64,000 nt of DNA from Corynebacterium sphenisci DSM 44792 (GTDB lineage Bacteria; Actinomycetota; Actinomycetes; Mycobacteriales; Mycobacteriaceae). The notes beneath the pieces were generated by a model. The model had not been told where the DNA came from. It worked only from the letters and a program-made list of their open reading frames with translations, and did no database searches. The translations under genes and the position numbers were made by a program. Numbering within the stretch: the stretch's first letter is position 1; each line of letters begins with the position of its first letter. Positions 25,968 to 35,991 of the stretch are shown one piece after another. The stretch lies in contig NZ_CP009248.1 in the NCBI RefSeq assembly GCF_001941505.1, positions 992,001-1,056,000 of the forward strand, written 5' to 3'.

Positions 25968-26042
25968 CCGCGCCCGCCCGTGCGGCCCCGCCGCGCGCGG
26001 GGCGGTCCGGGGTGGACCGCGGTGCGGGTATCGTCGGGAGTC

Positions 26043-27536
26043 ATGTCTGACGTACGCGTACGCTTCTGCCCCTCGCCCACCGGCACCCCGCATGTCGGGC
26101 TCATCCGCACGGCGCTGTTCAACTGGGCCTACGCCCGGCACACCGGCGGGACGCTGGTGTTCCGGATCGAGGACACCGACGCCGCCCGGGACACCGAGGA
26201 GTCCTACCGGGCGATCATCGACGCCCTGACCTGGCTCGGCCTGGACTGGGACGAGGGCATCGACGTCGGCGGCCCGCACGGGCCCTACCGGCAGTCCGAG
26301 CGCGGCGGGATCTACCGGGAGGTCATCGACAAGCTGCTCGCCGCCGGGGAGGCCTACGAGGACTTCTCCACCCGCGAGGAGGTCGCCGAGCGCCGCCGCG
26401 CCCGCGGCGAGGACCCGCAGCTGGGCTACGACAACCACGACCGGGACCTCACCGAGGAGCAGAAGGCCGCCTTCCGCGCCGAGGGCCGCGAGCCGGTGAT
26501 CCGGCTGCGCATGCCGGACACCGCCATCGCCTTCGACGACCTGGTGCGCGGCCGGGTGGAGTTCGCCGCCGGCTCGGTGCCGGACTTCGTCATCGCCCGC
26601 TCCAACGGCAAGCCCCTCTACACCCTGGTCAACCCGGTCGATGACGCGCTGATGGAGATCACCCACGTGCTGCGCGGCGAGGACCTGCTCTCCTCCACCC
26701 CCCGCCAGATCGCGCTCTACCAGGCGCTGCAGCGGATCGGCGTCGCCGAGCGGGTGCCGGAGTTCGCGCATCTGCCCTTCGTGATGGGCGAGGGCAACCG
26801 GAAGCTGTCCAAGCGCGATCCCGAGTCGGATCTGTTCATCCACCGGGAGAACGGCTTCATCCCGGAGGGGCTGCTGAACTACCTGGCGCTGCTGGGCTGG
26901 TCCATCTCCGCCGACCACGACGTGTTCGATCTCGAGGAGATGGTCGCCGCCTTCGACGTGCGCGACGTCAACGCCAATCCGGCCCGCTTCGACCAGAAGA
27001 AGGCCGATGCGATCAACGCCGAGCACATCCGGCGGCTGGACCCGGAGGACTTCACCGCCCGGCTGCGCAGCTACCTGGAGGCCACCCACGATTTCCCGCT
27101 GGACTTCCCGGCGAAGGACTTCCGGATGGCCGCCGAGCTGGTGCAGACCCGGATCAAGACCCTCGGCGACGCCTGGCCGCTGCTGCGCTTCCTGGTCGTC
27201 GACGAGGACGGGTTCACCCTCGACGAGCGCTCCGCCCGGCGCAATCTCAAGGAGGCCGCCGCCCCGGTGCTCGACGCCGCGATCGCCGCGGTGGAGGGTA
27301 TCGGGGAGGGCTCCTTCGACACCGCCGCCATCGAGGCCGCGCTGACGCGGGCCCTGGTGGAGGATCTGGGGGAGAAGCCGCGCAAGGCCTTCGGCCCGGT
27401 GCGGGTGGCGGTCACCGGCGCCCAGGTCTCCCCGCCGCTGTTCGAGTCCATGGAGCTGCTCGGCCGGGAGCGCTGCCTGCGCCGGCTGCGCGCCGCCCGC
27501 GAGGCCACCCCCTGGACCGCCCCGGCGGAGGGCTGA
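26043..27536 (+). CDS. gltX: glutamyl-tRNA synthetase
   Basis: Charges tRNA-Glu (and, in bacteria without GlnRS, tRNA-Gln for later amidation). 497 aa class I synthetase with the HIGH-type motif [11 protein letters not shown] near residue 10, the glutamate/ATP-binding IEDTDAARD, and the KMSKS-type KLSKR near residue 256. ATG at 26043; TATCGT lies 10 nt upstream. A bidirectional terminator follows. tRNA-Gln and two tRNA-Glu genes lie about 1.1 kb downstream, its likely substrates. Confidence 0.96.
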
Positions 27537-28602: not shown

Positions 28603-28674
28603 TGGCCTATGGTGTAATTGGCAACACAGCTGATTCTGGTTCAGCCATTCTAGGTTCGAGTCCTGGTAGGCCAG
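28603..28674 (+). tRNA. tRNA-Gln (CTG)
   Basis: 72 nt. Acceptor TGGCCTA pairs with TAGGCCA, discriminator G. Anticodon stem GCTGA/TCAGC with loop TTCTGGT, anticodon CTG. T-arm contains GGTTCGAGTCC. CCA not encoded. Confidence 0.95.
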
Positions 28675-28709
28675 CTGACCGCAGGCGGATCCGTCCGCCG
28701 GCAGGTCGA

Positions 28710-28782
28710 GCCCCGTTCGTCTAGCGGCCCAGGACACCGCCCTCTCACGGCGGCGGCACGGGTTCAAATCCCGTACGGGGTA
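28710..28782 (+). tRNA. tRNA-Glu (CTC), first copy
   Basis: 73 nt from GCCCCGT to ACGGGGT plus discriminator A. Anticodon stem CCGCC/GGCGG, loop CTCTCAC, anticodon CTC. T-arm GGGTTCAAATCCC. Identical to the copy at 28991. Confidence 0.95.
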
Positions 28783-28787
28783 CGTCT

Positions 28788-28818
28788 GCGCCCCCACCGG
28801 AAACCGGTGGGGGCGCTT
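28788..28818 (+). terminator. terminator after tRNA-Gln/tRNA-Glu
   Basis: GC-rich 10-bp stem CCCCCACCGG/CCGGTGGGGG with an AAA loop and a short TTT tail. Confidence 0.65.
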
Positions 28819-28925
28819 TCGCGTCCCGGTCCGCCCCGGGCGCGGCCGGGGTCGTCCGGGCCGCCGGGAGGGCGCCGGACGATACTCTCCGGTGCAACCC
28901 GATAACCGCCCTGAGCTGCGGATTA

Positions 28926-28953
28926 GGCGAACCCCGCGCGGGGCTGATAATCT
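28926..28953 (+). promoter_or_regulatory. promoter of the second tRNA-Glu gene
   Basis: TTAGGC and GATAAT separated by 17 bp, about 40 nt before the second tRNA-Glu. The copy therefore has its own promoter. Confidence 0.5.
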
Positions 28954-28990
28954 TCCCCGGGTCAGCGCGGGCACGCCCCGCGCGGTCCGA

Positions 28991-29063
28991 GCCCCGTTCG
29001 TCTAGCGGCCCAGGACACCGCCCTCTCACGGCGGCGGCACGGGTTCAAATCCCGTACGGGGTA
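28991..29063 (+). tRNA. tRNA-Glu (CTC), second copy
   Basis: 73 nt, identical base for base to the first copy 281 bp upstream; anticodon CTC. Confidence 0.95.
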
Positions 29064-29071
29064 CCACGCGC

Positions 29072-29107
29072 AAAACCCCCTCCCGGACATGTCCGGGAGG
29101 GGGTTTT
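29072..29107. terminator. strong bidirectional terminator (tRNA-Glu / nrdF)
   Basis: AAAA plus a perfect 14-bp stem with an apical palindrome and then TTTT; symmetric, so it can end both the tRNA transcript and the convergent nrdF transcript. Confidence 0.85.
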
Positions 29108-29123
29108 CCGGCGTTGCCGGGGC

Positions 29124-30119
29124 CTAGAAGTCCCAGTCGGAGTTCTCCGTGGACTCGGCCCGGCCGATCACGTAGGAGGAGCCGGAGCCGGAGAAGAAGT
29201 CGTGGGTCTCCGCGGCATCCGGGGCCAGCGCGGCGAGGATCTCCGGCTCCACGCCGGCGGCCTCCTTCTCGTAGCGCGGCCGGTAGCCCAGGTTCATCAG
29301 CGCCTTGTCCGCGTTGTAGTGCACGAAGGCCATCACCCCGTCGATCATGTGGAAGCCCTCGTAGAGCTCGCTGGAGTAGGCCAGCTCCAGCTCCAGGAGG
29401 CGCTCGATGAGCCCGTGGGTGAACTCCTCCAGCTCCGCGCGGCGCTCCGGGTGGGCGTCCAGGCCGCGCTGGAACTTGTAGCCGGAGTAGTAGCCGTGCA
29501 CCGCCTTGTCCCGCAGGATCAGCCGGATCATGTCCGCGGTGTTCATCATCACCCCGCGGGAGGAGAAGCGCAGCGGCAGGTAGAACCCGGCGTAGAGCAG
29601 CAGCGAGGACAGCAGGGTGGCGGCGGCCTTGCGCTTGAGCGGGTCATCGCCGCGGTAGTGCGCCATCACCGCGGTGGCCCGCTCCTGCAGCACCGGGTTG
29701 GCGGTGGCCCAGGCGTAGGCGGCGTCTATTTCCGCGGTGGAGCACATGGTGGAGAACACCGAGGAGTAGCTGCGCGCGTGCACCGCCTGCATGAAGGCGA
29801 TGTTGGCGTAGACGGCCTGCTCGTGCTCGGTGCGCGCATCCGGGATCTGGGCGACCTCGCCCACGGTGGCCTGCACCGTGTCCAGCAGGGTCAGCCCGGT
29901 GAAGATGCGCACGGTGAGCTCCCGTTCGCGCTCCTCCAGCAGCCGCCACTGGGGCAGGTCATTGGACAGCGGCACCTTCTCCGGCAGCCAGAAGTTGGCG
30001 GTGAGCCGCTGCCAGATCTCCGGGTCCTTGTCGTCCTGCAGCCGGTTCCAGTTCACCGGGTGCAGCGGCCGGGTCTCCCCGGGCCACCACTGCGGGGGCG
30101 TGATGTGGGCGTGGGTCAT
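29124..30119 (-). CDS. nrdF: ribonucleotide reductase radical subunit, class Ie-like (metal-free, QSK type)
   Basis: The beta subunit makes and stores the radical with which NrdE reduces ribonucleoside diphosphates. 331 aa, NrdF length, with close overall similarity to class Ib NrdF (NFWLPEKVPLSND, FSSRG, NADKALMNLGY, DFFSGSGSSYV). Three of the four metal-binding glutamates of class Ib are replaced: Gln111 in FMQAVHARSY, Ser171 in LLSSLLLYAG, Lys205 in RDKAVHGYY (codons at 29787-29789, 29607-29609, 29505-29507 checked). Asp80, His114, His208 and radical Tyr118 remain. The Q-S-K set is the mark of class Ie reductases, which bind no metal and use a DOPA radical made from the Tyr with NrdI and oxygen species. 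nrdI is next upstream; nrdE is not here. AGGAGG lies before the ATG. Confidence 0.93.
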   Translation of the reverse strand: MTHAHITPPQWWPGETRPLHPVNWNRLQDDKDPEIWQRLTANFWLPEKVPLSNDLPQWRLLEERERELTVRIFTGLTLLDTVQATVGEVAQIPDARTEHEQAVYANIAFMQAVHARSYSSVFSTMCSTAEIDAAYAWATANPVLQERATAVMAHYRGDDPLKRKAAATLLSSLLLYAGFYLPLRFSSRGVMMNTADMIRLILRDKAVHGYYSGYKFQRGLDAHPERRAELEEFTHGLIERLLELELAYSSELYEGFHMIDGVMAFVHYNADKALMNLGYRPRYEKEAAGVEPEILAALAPDAAETHDFFSGSGSSYVIGRAESTENSDWDF

Positions 30120-30240
30120 GGGAAGGGTCCTCCTCGATCGCCGGCGCCTCGGGCGCCGGATGCGGGTGGGGGTGGGAAGTCTGCGCCGGCGCCGGCGGCG
30201 GTGCGCCGCACCCGGCGCCGGGACGGGGTCGGCCGGGGCC

Positions 30241-30714
30241 TCAGCGGGCGCCGGCGGCGGCCCCGGGCGCGGCGGCGGGGTCCGCGCCGGGTTCGCCGGG
30301 TTCGGGCAGCCGGCCGCCGCGGGCCCAGAAGCCCGCCAGGCCGGCGCGCACCGCGGCGACGTCGGCCCCGGTGCCGAGCAGCTCGAAGCGGTAGAGCTCC
30401 GGGACCCCGCATTTGGCGGCGATGATCGGCCCGGCCAGGCAGAAGGCCTCGCCGAAGTTGGTGTTGCCGGAGGTGATCACGCCGCGGATGAGCGCGCGGT
30501 TGCGCTCGTCGTTGAGGAAGCGGATCACCTGCTTGGGCACGGCGCCGCGGGGGGCGCCGCCGCCGTAGGTGGGGGTGAGCAGGACGTAGGGCTCGTCGAC
30601 GACGAGCCGGGGCTCCGAGGGCCGCAGCGGGATCCGCCGCGCCGGCAGGCCGAGCTTGTCGACGAAGCGGCGGGTGTTCTCGGAGACCGAGGAGAAGTAC
30701 ACGAGCAGTGCCAT
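30241..30714 (-). CDS. nrdI: NrdI flavodoxin
   Basis: 157 aa flavodoxin that activates the NrdF radical site; in class Ie systems it is needed to convert the NrdF Tyr to DOPA. Seen: FMN phosphate loop [16 protein letters not shown] (residues 6-21), TPTYGGG and the [14 protein letters not shown] segment. The start is the ATG at 30714 after GGAAGG. The C-terminal Pro/Ala/Gly-rich tail (about 140-157) is dispensable-looking. First gene of the nrdI-nrdF unit, with a 121-bp GC-rich gap to nrdF. Confidence 0.93.
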
Positions 30715-30735
30715 GTCCGCCTTCCGGTGGGTCGG

Positions 30736-30783
30736 TTGAAGTACGTAGCAGCGAACCCTAGACTTCGTGGCACCCAATCTCAA
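30736..30783. promoter_or_regulatory. overlapping divergent promoters nrdI / PPOX gene
   Basis: Rightward: TTGAAG (30736-30741), 17 bp, TAGACT (30759-30764). Leftward: TTGAGA (30783-30778), 17 bp, TAGGGT (30760-30755). The two -10 boxes overlap by two bases, so the two units share one control region and could be switched together or against each other. The 8-bp inverted repeat GCCTTCCG/CGGAAGGC at 30719-30726 and 30784-30791 holds both ribosome binding sites. Confidence 0.6.
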
Positions 30784-30805
30784 CGGAAGGCAAGGAGGCT
30801 CACAC

Positions 30806-31213
30806 ATGGCCGCCATCGACGACGCGATGCGGGAGATGCTCGCCGCGCAGCTGCCCATCCTGGCCACGGTCACCGACGGCACCACCCCCAACATCGGGCC
30901 CAAGCGCTCGCTGCGGGCGTTCGACGACAGCACGCTCATCTACAACGAGAACACCGGGGGCCGGCACCTGGCCAACATCGAGGCCGGCTCCAAGGTCGCG
31001 GTCGCCGTCATCGACTGGGACACGCTCGACGGGTACCGCTTCCTCGGCCACGCCGAGGCGGTGCAGTCCGGCCCGGCCTGGGAGGACTGCCTGGCCTTCG
31101 CCCAGGACAACGGGATGGGCGAGCCGAAGCGGGCGGTGCTCATCCACATCGACGAGATCTACTCGCTGCGCTCCGGCGCCAAGGCCGGCACGCGGGTGGA
31201 CGGGGCCCGGTGA
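30806..31213 (+). CDS. PNPOx-fold flavin-binding protein
   Basis: 135 aa pyridoxamine-phosphate-oxidase-like split barrel of the FMN/F420-binding superfamily ([33 protein letters not shown]..., given here only as the segment near residues 14-45; flavin-contacting Arg/Lys in PKRSLR). ATG at 30806 after AAGGAGG. Overlaps the next, flavin reductase-like gene by 4 bp (GTGA), so the two are translationally coupled. Divergent from nrdI; a role in flavin supply or redox support for NrdI is possible but unproven. Confidence 0.8.
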
Positions 31214-31728
31214 CCCCCGCCCCGGACCCGGGGGAGGGGCAGCGGCTGTTCTTCCGGGGCACCGCCTCCGGGGTGTGGGTGGTCACCACCCGCGATGCCG
31301 CGGGCGCGCCGGTGGGCTTCACCGCCTCCTCGGTGGCCTCGGTGGCCCTGGACCCGGCCACCTGCACCCTGTCCCTGCAGGAGGGCTCCTCCTCCTGGCC
31401 GGCGGTGGCGCACCGCCGGCGGCTGGTGGTGCACGCCCTCGGCGCGGACGCCGCCGGCCTGGCCGCCCGCTTCGCCACCTCCGGCATCGACCGCTTCGCC
31501 GGGGTGGGCCACACCCGCGATGACGCGGGGCTGCCGGTGCTGCCGGAGGCGGCCGGGGTGATCGGCCGGCTGCACGTCGACGTCGCGGAGATCCTCGCCG
31601 TCGGCGGCTCCCGGCTGCTCATCTGCCACACCCGGCGCGCCTGGGCCGCGGACGCGGCCGCCGCGCCGCTGGTGCACCACGGCCGCGCCTACTGGCGGCT
31701 GGCCCCCGCCGGCGGGTCGGCGACGTAG
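31210..31728 (+). CDS. flavin reductase-like domain protein
   Basis: 172 aa of the flavin reductase (DIM6/NTAB, HpaC-like) domain: ASGVWVVTTRDAAGAPVGF, FTASSVASVALDP and the late LLICHTRRAW. Such proteins reduce free FMN/FAD with NAD(P)H. GTG start at 31210 overlaps the stop of the previous gene. The last 40 bp overlap the end of the convergent mntR-like gene. Possible electron source for the NrdI flavodoxin encoded divergently. Confidence 0.8.
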   Translation: MTPAPDPGEGQRLFFRGTASGVWVVTTRDAAGAPVGFTASSVASVALDPATCTLSLQEGSSSWPAVAHRRRLVVHALGADAAGLAARFATSGIDRFAGVGHTRDDAGLPVLPEAAGVIGRLHVDVAEILAVGGSRLLICHTRRAWAADAAAAPLVHHGRAYWRLAPAGGSAT

Positions 31729-32396
31729 GCGACCCGGATCAGCGCGGCGACGTCCCGGCTCACCGGGATCGCCGCGCCGGCGCCGTCCGCCGGGCGCAGC
31801 AGCAGCACCCCCGCCGAGGCCCCGGCATCGGAGACGGTGAACCGGGCCCCGGGGGTGACCCCGGAATCGCTGAGATGGCGCAGCAGCGCCGAATCGGCGT
31901 CGCGCACCCGGGTGACCTCCACCAGGGCCCCGGCCCGGGCCGCGTCCAGGCCGCCGTCGCCGGAATCGGGCACGGTGCCGTCGGGGGCCGGGATCGGGTC
32001 GCCGTGCGGATCCCGGGTGGGGTGGCCGAGCAGTTCGTCGAGCCGGGCCAGCATCCGGTCGGAGACCGCGTGCTCCAGCCGGTCGGCGTCCTCGTGCACC
32101 TCATCCCAGGTGTAGCCGAGGGTGTCCGCCAGGAAGGTCTCGATGAGCCGGTGCCGGCGCACCATCTGCAGCGCGATCGACCGGCCCCGCTCGGTGAGGC
32201 CCACCGCCCCGTAGGGGGCGTGCTCGACCAGGCCCTGCTCGCGCAGCCGCCGGATCTGATCCGACACCGAGGAGGGGCGCAGATCCAGGTGCGCGGCCAC
32301 CTTCGACGGGGCCACCGGCTCCCCCGACCATTCGGACAGGGTCCACAGCGCCTTGAGGTAGTTCTGGGCGCTGTCGCTCAGATCCTTCATCTCCAT
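31689..32396 (-). CDS. mntR: DtxR/MntR-family metal-dependent repressor
   Basis: 235 aa. N-terminal winged HTH (about 5-70, VAAHLDLRPSSVSDQIRRLREQ), the metal-binding/dimerisation domain (RRHRLIETFLADTLGYTWDEVHEDADRLEHAVSD) and a C-terminal SH3-like part. The WDEVHEDADRLEH segment carries the His/Glu metal ligands and is typical of manganese-type (MntR) members rather than DtxR itself. ATG at 32396; TAGGGT lies 8 nt upstream, so the mRNA is probably leaderless. Next to a metal-free reductase, a manganese-responsive link is attractive. Confidence 0.85.
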   Translation of the reverse strand: MEMKDLSDSAQNYLKALWTLSEWSGEPVAPSKVAAHLDLRPSSVSDQIRRLREQGLVEHAPYGAVGLTERGRSIALQMVRRHRLIETFLADTLGYTWDEVHEDADRLEHAVSDRMLARLDELLGHPTRDPHGDPIPAPDGTVPDSGDGGLDAARAGALVEVTRVRDADSALLRHLSDSGVTPGARFTVSDAGASAGVLLLRPADGAGAAIPVSRDVAALIRVAYVADPPAGASRQ

Positions 32397-32417
32397 GGTG
32401 GTCAACCCTAACCCGGT

Positions 32418-33662
32418 TCAGCGCAGCGTGGCGCGTCCGCGCTCGTCGGAGCGGGGGGAGATGAGCAACGCGGCCGCCGGGAAGGCGGCGGTGAGGGCGA
32501 ACAGCGCCGGGAACCCGGCGGCGGCGACGACCAGCCCGGCCAGCGGCGGGGTGGCCGCGTAGACCACGTTCTGGAAGGTGTTCTGGGCGCCCATCCCGCG
32601 GCCCGACCACAGCGGCCCGCAGTATTCGGCGACCGCGGTGAGGGCCAGCCCGTTGGGCGAGACCGCGGAGACCGCGAGCAGGCCCAGCACCGCCGCCGCG
32701 GCCGCCCCGGCGCCGGCGGCGTCGAGGGCCGCGGCCGCCGCGGCCAGGCCCAGGGTGGCCGCGGCCACCGCCCGGTAGGGCCGCAGCCGGGAGCGCACCC
32801 GGTCCGAGATCAGGCCCATCAGCGCCCGGGAGGCCGCCCCCGCCAGCTGCGCGGAGATCACCACGGCCGCGGCGGCGGCCCCGGAGAAGCCCCGGGCGAG
32901 CAGCCAGACCAGGAACATCGAGCCCATCATGGACTGCGGCCAGGACAGCATCGCCGAGGACAGGTGGATCCGCACCAGGTAGGGCACCCGCGCCCCGGAG
33001 CCCCGGTACGGGTTCGCCCGCGCCGCGGCGTGCCCGGCGCTGCCCGCGGCCGGCCGCGGCGGATCCACGATGCCGACCAGGCAGGCCGCCGCGAGCAGGG
33101 CGCACAGCCCCGCCGCGGCGGCCAGCGCGCCGCCGATGCCGTGCGCGGCGGCCAGCGCCGGCAGCGCCGCGGCGGACAGCGCCGCGCCCAGCGGCTGCGC
33201 CATCTGGCGCACCCCCATCGCGGTGCCCCGGCGCGCCGGCGGGTACCAGCCGGAGACCACCCGGCCGGAGGCGGAGTTGACGCTGGCCGCCCCGCAGCCG
33301 GCGAGCAGCAGCGCCCCGGCCAGGGCGGCGGTGCCGGAGCCGGCCACCGCCGCGGCCGCGGCGGTGGCCGCCGCGGTGGCGGCCAGGCCCAGGCTCATCG
33401 CGGCGCGTTCGCCGAAGCGGTCCACGAACCAGCCCCAGGCGATCAGGGTGAGCACGATCCCGGCCGCCGGCATCGCCCCGATCAGGCCGGCGGTGGCCAG
33501 CGGCAGCCCGGAGTCGACCAGGGCGGGGATGAGCAGGGGCACCCCCATGTGCACCGTGGTGGAGCCGGTGGCGGCGAGGGTGGACAGCGCCAGGGCGAGG
33601 TGCCGGTAGCCGCCGGCGGCGGCGATCCGCTCCCGGCGGGGGACGGGGCCCGGCCCCGTCAC
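32418..33662 (-). CDS. MFS transporter (oxalate/formate antiporter-like)
   Basis: 414 aa, about twelve membrane helices in two halves with the MFS loop WGWFVDRFGERAAM between helices 2 and 3 and GLISDRVRSR in the second half. The start is the GTG at 33662, overlapping the ltbR stop (GTGA), so it is translationally coupled to the leucine regulator. Substrate unknown; the coupling to ltbR suggests a leucine/tryptophan-pathway-related compound, but this is inference only. Confidence 0.8.
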   Translation of the reverse strand: MTGPGPVPRRERIAAAGGYRHLALALSTLAATGSTTVHMGVPLLIPALVDSGLPLATAGLIGAMPAAGIVLTLIAWGWFVDRFGERAAMSLGLAATAAATAAAAAVAGSGTAALAGALLLAGCGAASVNSASGRVVSGWYPPARRGTAMGVRQMAQPLGAALSAAALPALAAAHGIGGALAAAAGLCALLAAACLVGIVDPPRPAAGSAGHAAARANPYRGSGARVPYLVRIHLSSAMLSWPQSMMGSMFLVWLLARGFSGAAAAAVVISAQLAGAASRALMGLISDRVRSRLRPYRAVAAATLGLAAAAAALDAAGAGAAAAAVLGLLAVSAVSPNGLALTAVAEYCGPLWSGRGMGAQNTFQNVVYAATPPLAGLVVAAAGFPALFALTAAFPAAALLISPRSDERGRATLR

Positions 33663-34414
33663 AGGCGGCGACCCATCAGTTCCGCGGAGTCGAGCACCTC
33701 CCGTCCCCAGGCGGCGTAGGGGGAGGGGGTGAGCCGCTCCACGGGTCCGGAGATGGACAGCACCGCCTCCATCTCCCCGGCGGCGTTGCGCACCGGGGCG
33801 CTGACGCTGGCCAGGGCGGGGTCGCGTTCGCCGATGGACTCCGCCCAGCCGGCCTCCCGGGTCGCCGCCAGGTCGGCGCGGCTGAACTCCGCCTCCGGCA
33901 GGAAGCGCTCGGCCAGGCCCTCCGGGCCGAAGGCGAGCATCACCCGGCCGGCGGAGCCGGCGGTCAGCGGCATCCGGGAGCCCACCGGCACCGTGTTGCG
34001 CAGCCCGGTGGGCGGCTCCATGGAGGCGATGCAGGTGCGCGTGTCCCCGGTGAGCCGGTAGATCTGCACCGATTCGCCGGTGAGCTCCATCAGCCGGGGC
34101 AGCACGTGCGCGGCGGCGTCGGTGAGCAGGTCCGAGGTCACCGGGGTGAGATCGGCCAGGCCGGGCCCGGAGGTCCACCGGCCGTCGGCGGTGCGGGTGA
34201 CCAGGCGGTGCACCTCCAGGGCGGTGGCCAGGCGGTGCGCGGTGGCCCGGGGCAGCCCGGTGCGCTCGCACAGCTCGGTGAGGGTGCACGGCCCGTCGGC
34301 CACCGTGGTGAGGATCAGCACCGACCGGTCGAGTACCTTGATGCCGCTGGCCGGGGCCTCGCCGCGGGCGTCCCCGCGTACCGGACCGCCGGCGGCTGTG
34401 CTAGTCTGTCCCAT
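33659..34414 (-). CDS. ltbR: IclR-type regulator of leucine and tryptophan biosynthesis (LtbR)
   Basis: 251 aa. N-terminal winged HTH (about 25-90; [35 protein letters not shown], of which [12 protein letters not shown] is the recognition helix) and a C-terminal IclR ligand-binding domain. In C. glutamicum LtbR sits divergent to leuCD and represses leuB, leuCD and the trp leader. TAGTAT lies 6 nt before the ATG at 34414, so it should be leaderless. The inverted repeat at 34399-34429 overlaps its own start. Confidence 0.92.
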
Positions 34415-34429: not shown

Positions 34430-34512
34430 TCCCATCATCTGGGATGGGGGGTCCGGGTTCAGCCCACCGGGACCGCCCCGCACCGAATATTCCGACGACC
34501 CATGAGGTGACC

Positions 34513-35991
34513 ATGAGCAGCGCTGCGGACACGGGACCGAAGACCCTGGCGGAGAAGGTGTGGCGCGACCACGTCGTCGTGCCCGGGGGCGACGGTGAGC
34601 CGGATCTCATCTACATCGACCTCCACCTCTGCCATGAGGTGACCTCCCCGCAGGCCTTCGACGGGCTCCGCCTGGCCGGCCGCAAGGTGCGCCGCACCGA
34701 TCTCACCATCGCCACCGAGGACCATAACGTGCCCACCGACGTCTCCGGCGGGCGGATCAACCTGATCACCGAGCTGACCTCGCGCACCCAGATCGCCACC
34801 CTGCGCAAGAACGCCGAGGACTTCGGGGTGCGGATCCACCCGATGGGCGACATCGAGCAGGGCATCGTGCACGTGGTCGGCCCCCAGCTGGGCCTGACCC
34901 AGCCGGGCACCACCGTGGTCTGCGGCGATTCGCACACCGCCACCCACGGCGCCTTCGGCGCCATGGCCTTCGGCATCGGCACCTCCGAGGTGGAGCATGT
35001 GCTGGCCACCCAGACGCTGTCCCTGAAGCCCTTCAAGACCATGGCGATCAACGTCTCCGGCACCCTGCGGCCCGGGGTCACCTCCAAGGACCTGATCCTG
35101 AAGATCATCTCCAAGATCGGCACCGGCGGCGGCCAGGGCCACGTCATCGAGTACCGCGGCGAGGCCATCGAGAAGCTGTCGATGGAGGCGCGGATGACCA
35201 TCTGCAACATGTCCATCGAAGCCGGCGCCCGCGCCGGCATGATCGCCCCGGACGAGACCACCTTCGCCTACCTCAAGGGCCGCCCGCACGCGCCCAAGGG
35301 CGAGGACTGGGACCGGGCGGTGGAGTACTGGCGCTCCCTGGTCACCGACGAGGACGCCGAGTTCGACACCGTGGTGGAGATCGACGGCGATGCGCTGACC
35401 CCCTTCGTCACCTGGGGTACCAACCCCGGCCAGGGCGTGCACCTGGACGATTGCGTCCCGGACCCGGAGTGCTTCTCCGACGAATCCGAGCGGATCGCCG
35501 CCCAGCGCGCCCTGGAGTACATGGACCTGGAGCCGGGCACCCCGATGCGGGAGATCCCGGTCGACGTGGTGTTCTGCGGCTCCTGCACCAACGGCCGGAT
35601 CGAGGACATGCGCGCCATCGCCGAGGTGATGCGCGGCCGCCGGGTCGCCGAGGGGGTGCGCATGCTGGTGGTGCCCGGCTCCTCCCGGGTGCAGAAGCAG
35701 GCCGAGGCCGAGGGCCTGGACCAGATCCTGATCCGGGCCGGCGCGGAATGGCGCAACCCCGGCTGCTCCATGTGCCTGGGCATGAACCCGGACCAGCTCT
35801 CCCCGGGGCAGCGCTGCGCCTCCACCTCGAACCGCAACTTCGAGGGCCGCCAGGGCAAGGGCGGGCGCACCCACCTGGTCTCCCCGCCGGTGGCCGCCGC
35901 CACCGCGGTGCTCGGCCGGCTGGGCACCCCCGATGAGCTGGACCCGGTCGCCGACGCGATGCCCGCGGCCCCGCGCGCCGCCTCCGCCTGA
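34513..35991 (+). CDS. leuC: 3-isopropylmalate dehydratase, large subunit
   Basis: With LeuD isomerises 2-isopropylmalate to 3-isopropylmalate, the second step of leucine synthesis, using a [4Fe-4S] cluster. 492 aa from the ATG at 34513 (AGGTGA upstream); earlier in-frame starts lie before the operator-bearing leader. Cluster Cys residues are in [11 protein letters not shown] and in the CSMC of [11 protein letters not shown]; other aconitase motifs [12 protein letters not shown] are present. leuD follows after 36 bp. Confidence 0.96.

Follow-up and report, generated by a model that had tools for sequence, protein, structure and literature searches.

A QSK-type class Ie NrdF of Corynebacterium sphenisci, its NrdI partner and their probable control by an MntR-like regulator

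The closest described counterpart of the system considered here is the class Ie ribonucleotide reductase (RNR) of Gardnerella vaginalis, whose R2 subunit (R2e), bearing a Gln-Ser-Lys (QSK) triad, was found to contain only traces of iron and manganese, to carry 3,4-dihydroxyphenylalanine (DOPA) at the matching tyrosine, and to require both DOPA and reduced NrdI for activity (PMC11846895; this and the other papers are cited for the passages retrieved). Structures 8RAG and 8RAH represent the Tyr and DOPA forms of this Gardnerella (Bifidobacterium vaginale) protein. The same study counted 275 QSK genes in 266 GTDB genomes, 105 of these genomes belonging to the Mycobacteriales, with 104 nrdIF stretches among the QSK loci; Corynebacterium was the largest group with QSK as the sole RNR (40 species), and QSK R2s devoid of their own nrdE were said to rely probably on an R1 from another locus (PMC11846895). 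For one operon of this kind, control by metal has already been published, nrdI-nrdF2 of C. diphtheriae being listed among MntR-regulated genes (PMC13001254), while MtsR of Streptococcus pyogenes directly represses nrdF.2IE.2 and not the related nrdHEF (PMC6593403). Here we analyzed a 64,000-nucleotide stretch of the Corynebacterium sphenisci DSM 44792 chromosome (NZ_CP009248.1, positions 992,001 to 1,056,000; hereafter the window) harboring an nrdI-nrdF pair predicted to encode an R2 of the QSK type with its activator. Our preferred reading, which we consider probable, is that this pair is a spare to the class Ib R2 of the same organism, probably repressed by a metal sensor of the DtxR family and derepressed under scarcity of manganese or perhaps of iron.

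The nrdF product harbors Gln111, Ser171 and Lys205 at positions that we take to be equivalent to Glu98, Glu158 and Glu192 of Salmonella NrdF, following the numbering used in the initial annotation of this DNA. In HMMER alignments, these residues aligned with glutamates of the displayed class Ib metal-binding proteins, and with Gln, Ser and Lys in 8RAG/8RAH, the closest solved structures (E about 2e-144); comparison with class Ib and class Ie NrdF thus placed no Glu at any of the three positions. Reading of the codons by script agreed with the alignment (Table 1), and bore out the earlier claim that Asp80, Tyr118 and both histidines (His114 and His208, each encoded by CAC) are retained. On a tree of 55 NrdF proteins (from 42 of the 87 QSK loci, six of the 40 control loci and seven of the 50 named loci described below), the window protein sat inside a single QSK clade together with Gardnerella L027, apart from the Glu-Glu-Glu proteins, with a support of 100/100. 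Its sequence places it in class Ie, QSK type, as annotated initially. The NCBIfam label is class 1b, because the curated models concerned do not split off class Ie. With an open reading frame of 331 codons and the combination D-Q-H-Y-S-K-H common to 87/87 QSK-group loci of the genus at the seven positions, the triad is due neither to chance nor to decay; the G+C content at third codon positions of nrdF is 98%. Among named relatives, a C. halotolerans record comes nearest (L006, 88% identity), and phage NrdF proteins were 59-61% identical among the matches listed. The class Ie R2 proteins of the Val-Pro-Lys (VPK) type (6GP2/8BT3 from Mesoplasma; 6EBO and 7MMP, presumably from Aerococcus) resemble the window protein in that the same three positions are altered and in their dependence on NrdI, but carry V-P-K rather than Q-S-K. 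Their gene order, moreover, is nrdFIE (PMC11846895). Retention of Asp80 and both histidines could also be expected of a metal-binding R2 that tolerates Gln, Ser and Lys and still uses one metal ion or another metal, an explanation that we hold to be most improbable in view of the Gardnerella protein, with its traces of metal and its activity confined to the DOPA form with reduced NrdI (PMC11846895).

Two NrdF, two NrdI and one large subunit (PF02867) are encoded in the C. sphenisci genome. The only NrdE gene lies in the class Ib locus, elsewhere than the window pair, and nrdI-nrdF, having no NrdE of its own, would therefore share that of the class Ib locus. If the pair works like its Gardnerella counterpart, NrdI would supply an oxidant derived from reduced oxygen, Tyr118 would be converted to a DOPA radical with no metal involved, and the radical would then pass to this NrdE, the QSK R2 serving as a spare to the Mn/Fe-dependent R2 of the class Ib locus. 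The Gardnerella loci are alike in the Q-S-K triad, the kept Asp, His and Tyr residues and the nearby NrdI gene, with an NrdF 64% identical to ours; in the window, in contrast, nrdIF stands alone, alongside a class Ib locus. The initial annotation had recognized the class Ie type correctly, but gave no strand (minus) and overlooked the class Ib set, the absence of an own NrdE, and the fact that the enzyme belongs to a kind already characterized in Gardnerella and reported to be common among Corynebacterium (PMC11846895).

An NrdF match was found in 199 of 201 Corynebacterium genomes; the other two (G200 and G120, 100% and 95% complete) yielded no NrdF match at all and may use another RNR class. 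All listed rows of at least 64% identity, one of them partial, made up the QSK group (87 loci in 86 genomes, our own included), the rows below lying at 57% identity or less, with the proviso that fragments could escape. Forty listed loci of the other NrdF group, all of them with a Glu-Glu-Glu (EEE) triad, served as a control. Among 50 named loci found with the window protein, 35 were QSK and 14 Glu-Glu-Glu, while L053, read at the first position, had Glu there. Every QSK genome sampled had at least two NrdF matches by eye, and the samples or definitions differ between this count and the 40 sole-RNR species of PMC11846895.

The regulator gene of the window, whose start lies some 1.7 kb upstream of nrdI, encodes a protein with the DNA-binding and metal/dimerization domains of the DtxR family (PF01325 and PF02742). 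It is closer to MntR than to DtxR, with 46-53% identity to MntR-like proteins beside sites of the first operator type (see below), in agreement with the tree, versus 30% to the other DtxR-family protein of the genome, which is encoded beside a sigma-factor gene. By tblastn (E 1e-6), a homolog lay within about 4 kb of 45/87 QSK loci and of 0/40 EEE loci; 27 of these homologs stood beside nrdIEF, nine beside nrdIF, two were divergent, six had the arrangement of the window with both flavin genes, and one was further off. In the QSK loci fetched from other genera (Bifidobacterium, Gardnerella, Pseudoscardovia, Winkia and Actinotignum), the search revealed no homolog nearby. Nineteen non-redundant regulators from the 45 linked loci formed one group (97/93), apart from nine MntR proteins beside first-type sites; we refer to the linked group as MntR2. 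The DNA-recognition helix reads mostly TASEAVK in one regulator group versus S-S/T-A/V-SDA or SDQ in the other, a difference that fits a change of operator.

Two operator types were indeed encountered. The first, AAGTTCAANNNNTTGAACTT, occurred with at most one mismatch in 60/201 genomes, and its reversed control in one. Thirty of these loci were fetched and inspected by eye: the site preceded mntR at 12, most of them with a gene for a metal-binding lipoprotein on the opposite side, the lipoprotein gene alone at four, an ABC ATPase gene at five, an Nramp gene at two, sodA at one and nrdI at three, the remaining three showing no metal gene. With a profile trained on 24 non-nrdI sites (23 distinct), the region before nrdI reached a score of 14 bits or more in 33/87 QSK loci, the next best score being 6.0, and in 0/26 scorable EEE regions, which were those preceding nrdI, such that a promoter further upstream may escape. 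In the C. sphenisci genome, the first operator yielded only a poor site, within a transporter-like cluster. We found three binding proteins of the ZnuA family in this genome, but no Nramp protein; no shared operator was found before any of the three ZnuA-family genes (script over L090-L092, L092 also by eye).

The second operator, AACTACG-N6-CGTAGTT, precedes nrdI at loci with a linked regulator, in some of them twice. Allowing up to three mismatches, it was present at 38/87 QSK loci, 35 of which have a linked regulator, whereas the best match in EEE regions had five mismatches or worse (26/26). Ten QSK loci had a linked regulator and no clear second-type site; no locus carried both operators, and no first-operator locus had a linked regulator. 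Since the reversed control was also frequent in a genus scan at one mismatch, exact sites and their position were used as evidence; at three mismatches in the C. sphenisci genome, too, the operator did no better than its control (35 versus 66 sites). Exact sites numbered at least 43; the 43 listed, from 24 genomes, are all located 0.5-3.3 kb ahead of the nrdF of a QSK locus. Six of the 87 loci showed no linked regulator and no operator (three mismatches being allowed for the second type), among them L162, in which an exact second-type site lies 414 nt before nrdI. On the NrdF tree, the QSK rows having a mode (L162, L164, L166 and L206, where no linked regulator was found, being coded by operator) show nine or more changes between the two control modes, and the pattern is thus not merely one of kinship. 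Genome G072 holds two QSK loci, L168 and L192, both carrying the second operator; at one of them the regulator is divergent and accompanied by nrdIF, whereas the arrangement at the other is regulator-nrdIEF. We give even chances to the proposal that a separate MntR branch, MntR2, serves the metal-free reductase, traveling with QSK nrdI(E)F, using its own operator (whose exact form was confined to these operons among the sites listed), and having changed places with ordinary MntR control on nine or more occasions. The open-access literature searched, partly as passages, yielded no mention of the QSK-MntR link, of the second operator, of a distinct regulator branch or of switching between modes, and a term search of the retrieved text of PMC11846895 did not return MntR.

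The window belongs to the mode with a linked regulator, and the sensor of nrdI-nrdF in this genome is probably the MntR-like protein encoded upstream. Its place singles out a putative operator before nrdI (Table 1): at the same place, the loci L006 and L007 have AACTACG-GTGCTA-CGTACTT and GACTTCG-GTGCTA-CGTACTT. The sequence GCTACGTACTTCAA has one exact copy in the genome, at nrdI, and one copy with two mismatches at the end of a coding frame. Several observations weigh against our preferred reading. Five of the 14 fixed bases of the putative operator differ (shuffle p 0.19, not significant alone), and it is likewise degenerate in four sister loci (L124-L127). Five of the 87 QSK loci remain without operator or linked regulator, many QSK loci are near relatives, and the use of QSK as sole RNR in Corynebacterium species (PMC11846895) fits a back-up role less well. 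The regulator misses the NCBIfam MntR equivalog cut-off (170.6 versus 350 bits) and departs from MntR at the residue discussed in the next paragraph, so that the metal it senses may be other than manganese. The class Ie R2 might, finally, be expressed in an ordinary or constitutive manner, the nearby MntR-like gene having no function in nrd control in this species; a strict consensus promoter scan of 29000-32500 came back empty, and the regulator gene, instead of lying directly beside nrdI, converges on the gene for the flavin reductase, in keeping with such a view as is the weakness of the operator. We nonetheless deem it unlikely, given the association of the regulator with QSK nrdIF in several arrangements and its absence from the EEE loci, and given that the nearest named relative has an operator with one mismatch at the same place.

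Alternatively, the main signal for nrdI-nrdF could be iron or oxidative stress instead of manganese. The regulator, like most of the linked-regulator group in the alignment, has Asn (in QNYLK) at a position that we take to be that of the first metal ligand of B. subtilis MntR, Asp8. Streptococcus MtsR has been described as a regulator of iron homeostasis (PMC6593403), and C. diphtheriae MntR can bind its sites at high iron (PMC13001254). On the other hand, no binding of DtxR to the nrdI promoter was seen in C. diphtheriae (PMC13001254), and most of the 30 first-operator loci fetched have the site in front of mntR, a transporter gene or sodA, so that a primary response to iron or oxidative stress seems rather doubtful to us. 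The preferred reading, release under shortage of manganese or perhaps iron, has a parallel in C. diphtheriae nrdI-nrdF2, likewise an nrdI-nrdF pair under a manganese regulator (PMC13001254), although the window has the linked-regulator mode and the likeness rests on the pair and the regulator rather than on the triad of DIP1924. This protein was not found by name among the matches listed (best 120 of 7387); a 98% relative of the NrdF of G067, named C. pseudotuberculosis, is QSK, and G067 carries the first operator. MtsR of S. pyogenes resembles the proposed wiring in that a metal regulator represses an alternative nrd operon, but belongs to a different phylum, and the VPK nature of nrdF.2IE.2 is deduced from its F-I-E order and PMC9936198.

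Two flavin-related genes are divergent from nrdI (Table 1). The split-barrel gene was present at 18/87 QSK loci, the flavin reductase gene at 9/87 and both at 8/87, and neither at the 40 EEE loci. In Bacillus cereus, NrdI is reduced by FNR-type reductases and, weakly, by TrxR, and the hunt for NrdI partners was advised to go on in bacteria without an FNR2 homolog (PMC8564101); the authors of the Gardnerella study state that they had no protocol to replenish reduced NrdI constantly (PMC11846895). Proximity invites the guess that the two flavin proteins recharge NrdI, and for the lineage of the window we regard this as a long shot. They are candidates for the electron donor of NrdI, which in many bacteria is still being looked for.

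Table 1. Positions in the window of the nrdI-nrdF pair, its key codons and the features upstream.
Feature	Position	Strand	Basis
nrdF, R2 subunit with QSK triad (class Ie type)	29124..30119	minus	Open reading frame, 331 aa
Lys205 codon AAG, Glu192 position	29505..29507	minus	HMMER alignment and codon
Ser171 codon TCC, Glu158 position	29607..29609	minus	HMMER alignment and codon
Tyr118 codon TAC, radical/DOPA position	29766..29768	minus	HMMER alignment and codon
Gln111 codon CAG, Glu98 position	29787..29789	minus	HMMER alignment and codon
Asp80 codon GAC, kept ligand	29880..29882	minus	Codon read by script
nrdI, flavodoxin-like activator, directly upstream of nrdF	30241..30714	minus	PF07972 (E 5e-46), TIGR00333; start by script
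Putative degenerate operator GGGTTCG-CTGCTA-CGTACTT	30739..30758	minus	Position shared with one-mismatch copy in L123 (locus of L006)
Putative promoter TTGAGA, 17 nt, TAGGGT	30755..30783	minus	Read by eye; overlaps putative operator
Flavin mononucleotide split-barrel (PNPOx_N) protein, divergent from nrdI, 91 bp between starts	30806..31213	plus	PF01243
Flavin reductase-like protein, start overlaps preceding stop (GTGA)	31210..31728	plus	PF01613
MntR/DtxR-family regulator of the QSK-linked clade (MntR2)	31689..32396	minus	PF01325, PF02742, FeoA; 5zr4 (E 1e-57); tree

Elsewhere in the window, a tRNA-Gln and two tRNA-Glu genes (28603-29066, plus strand) lie downstream of a glutamyl-tRNA synthetase-like reading frame (25980-27536, plus strand, by eye), and an IclR-like regulator gene (33659-34414, minus strand) is divergent from a leuC-like gene (34444-35991, plus strand), also by eye.

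Altogether, the comparisons across the genus suggest that spare QSK enzymes are switched on under manganese shortage. If a separate MntR2 branch does serve it, the metal-free reductase would be the manganese-starvation branch of DNA synthesis; and if two interchangeable operators do connect the QSK pair to manganese sensors, the reason for keeping a metal-free R2 beside a manganese-dependent one would become directly testable.
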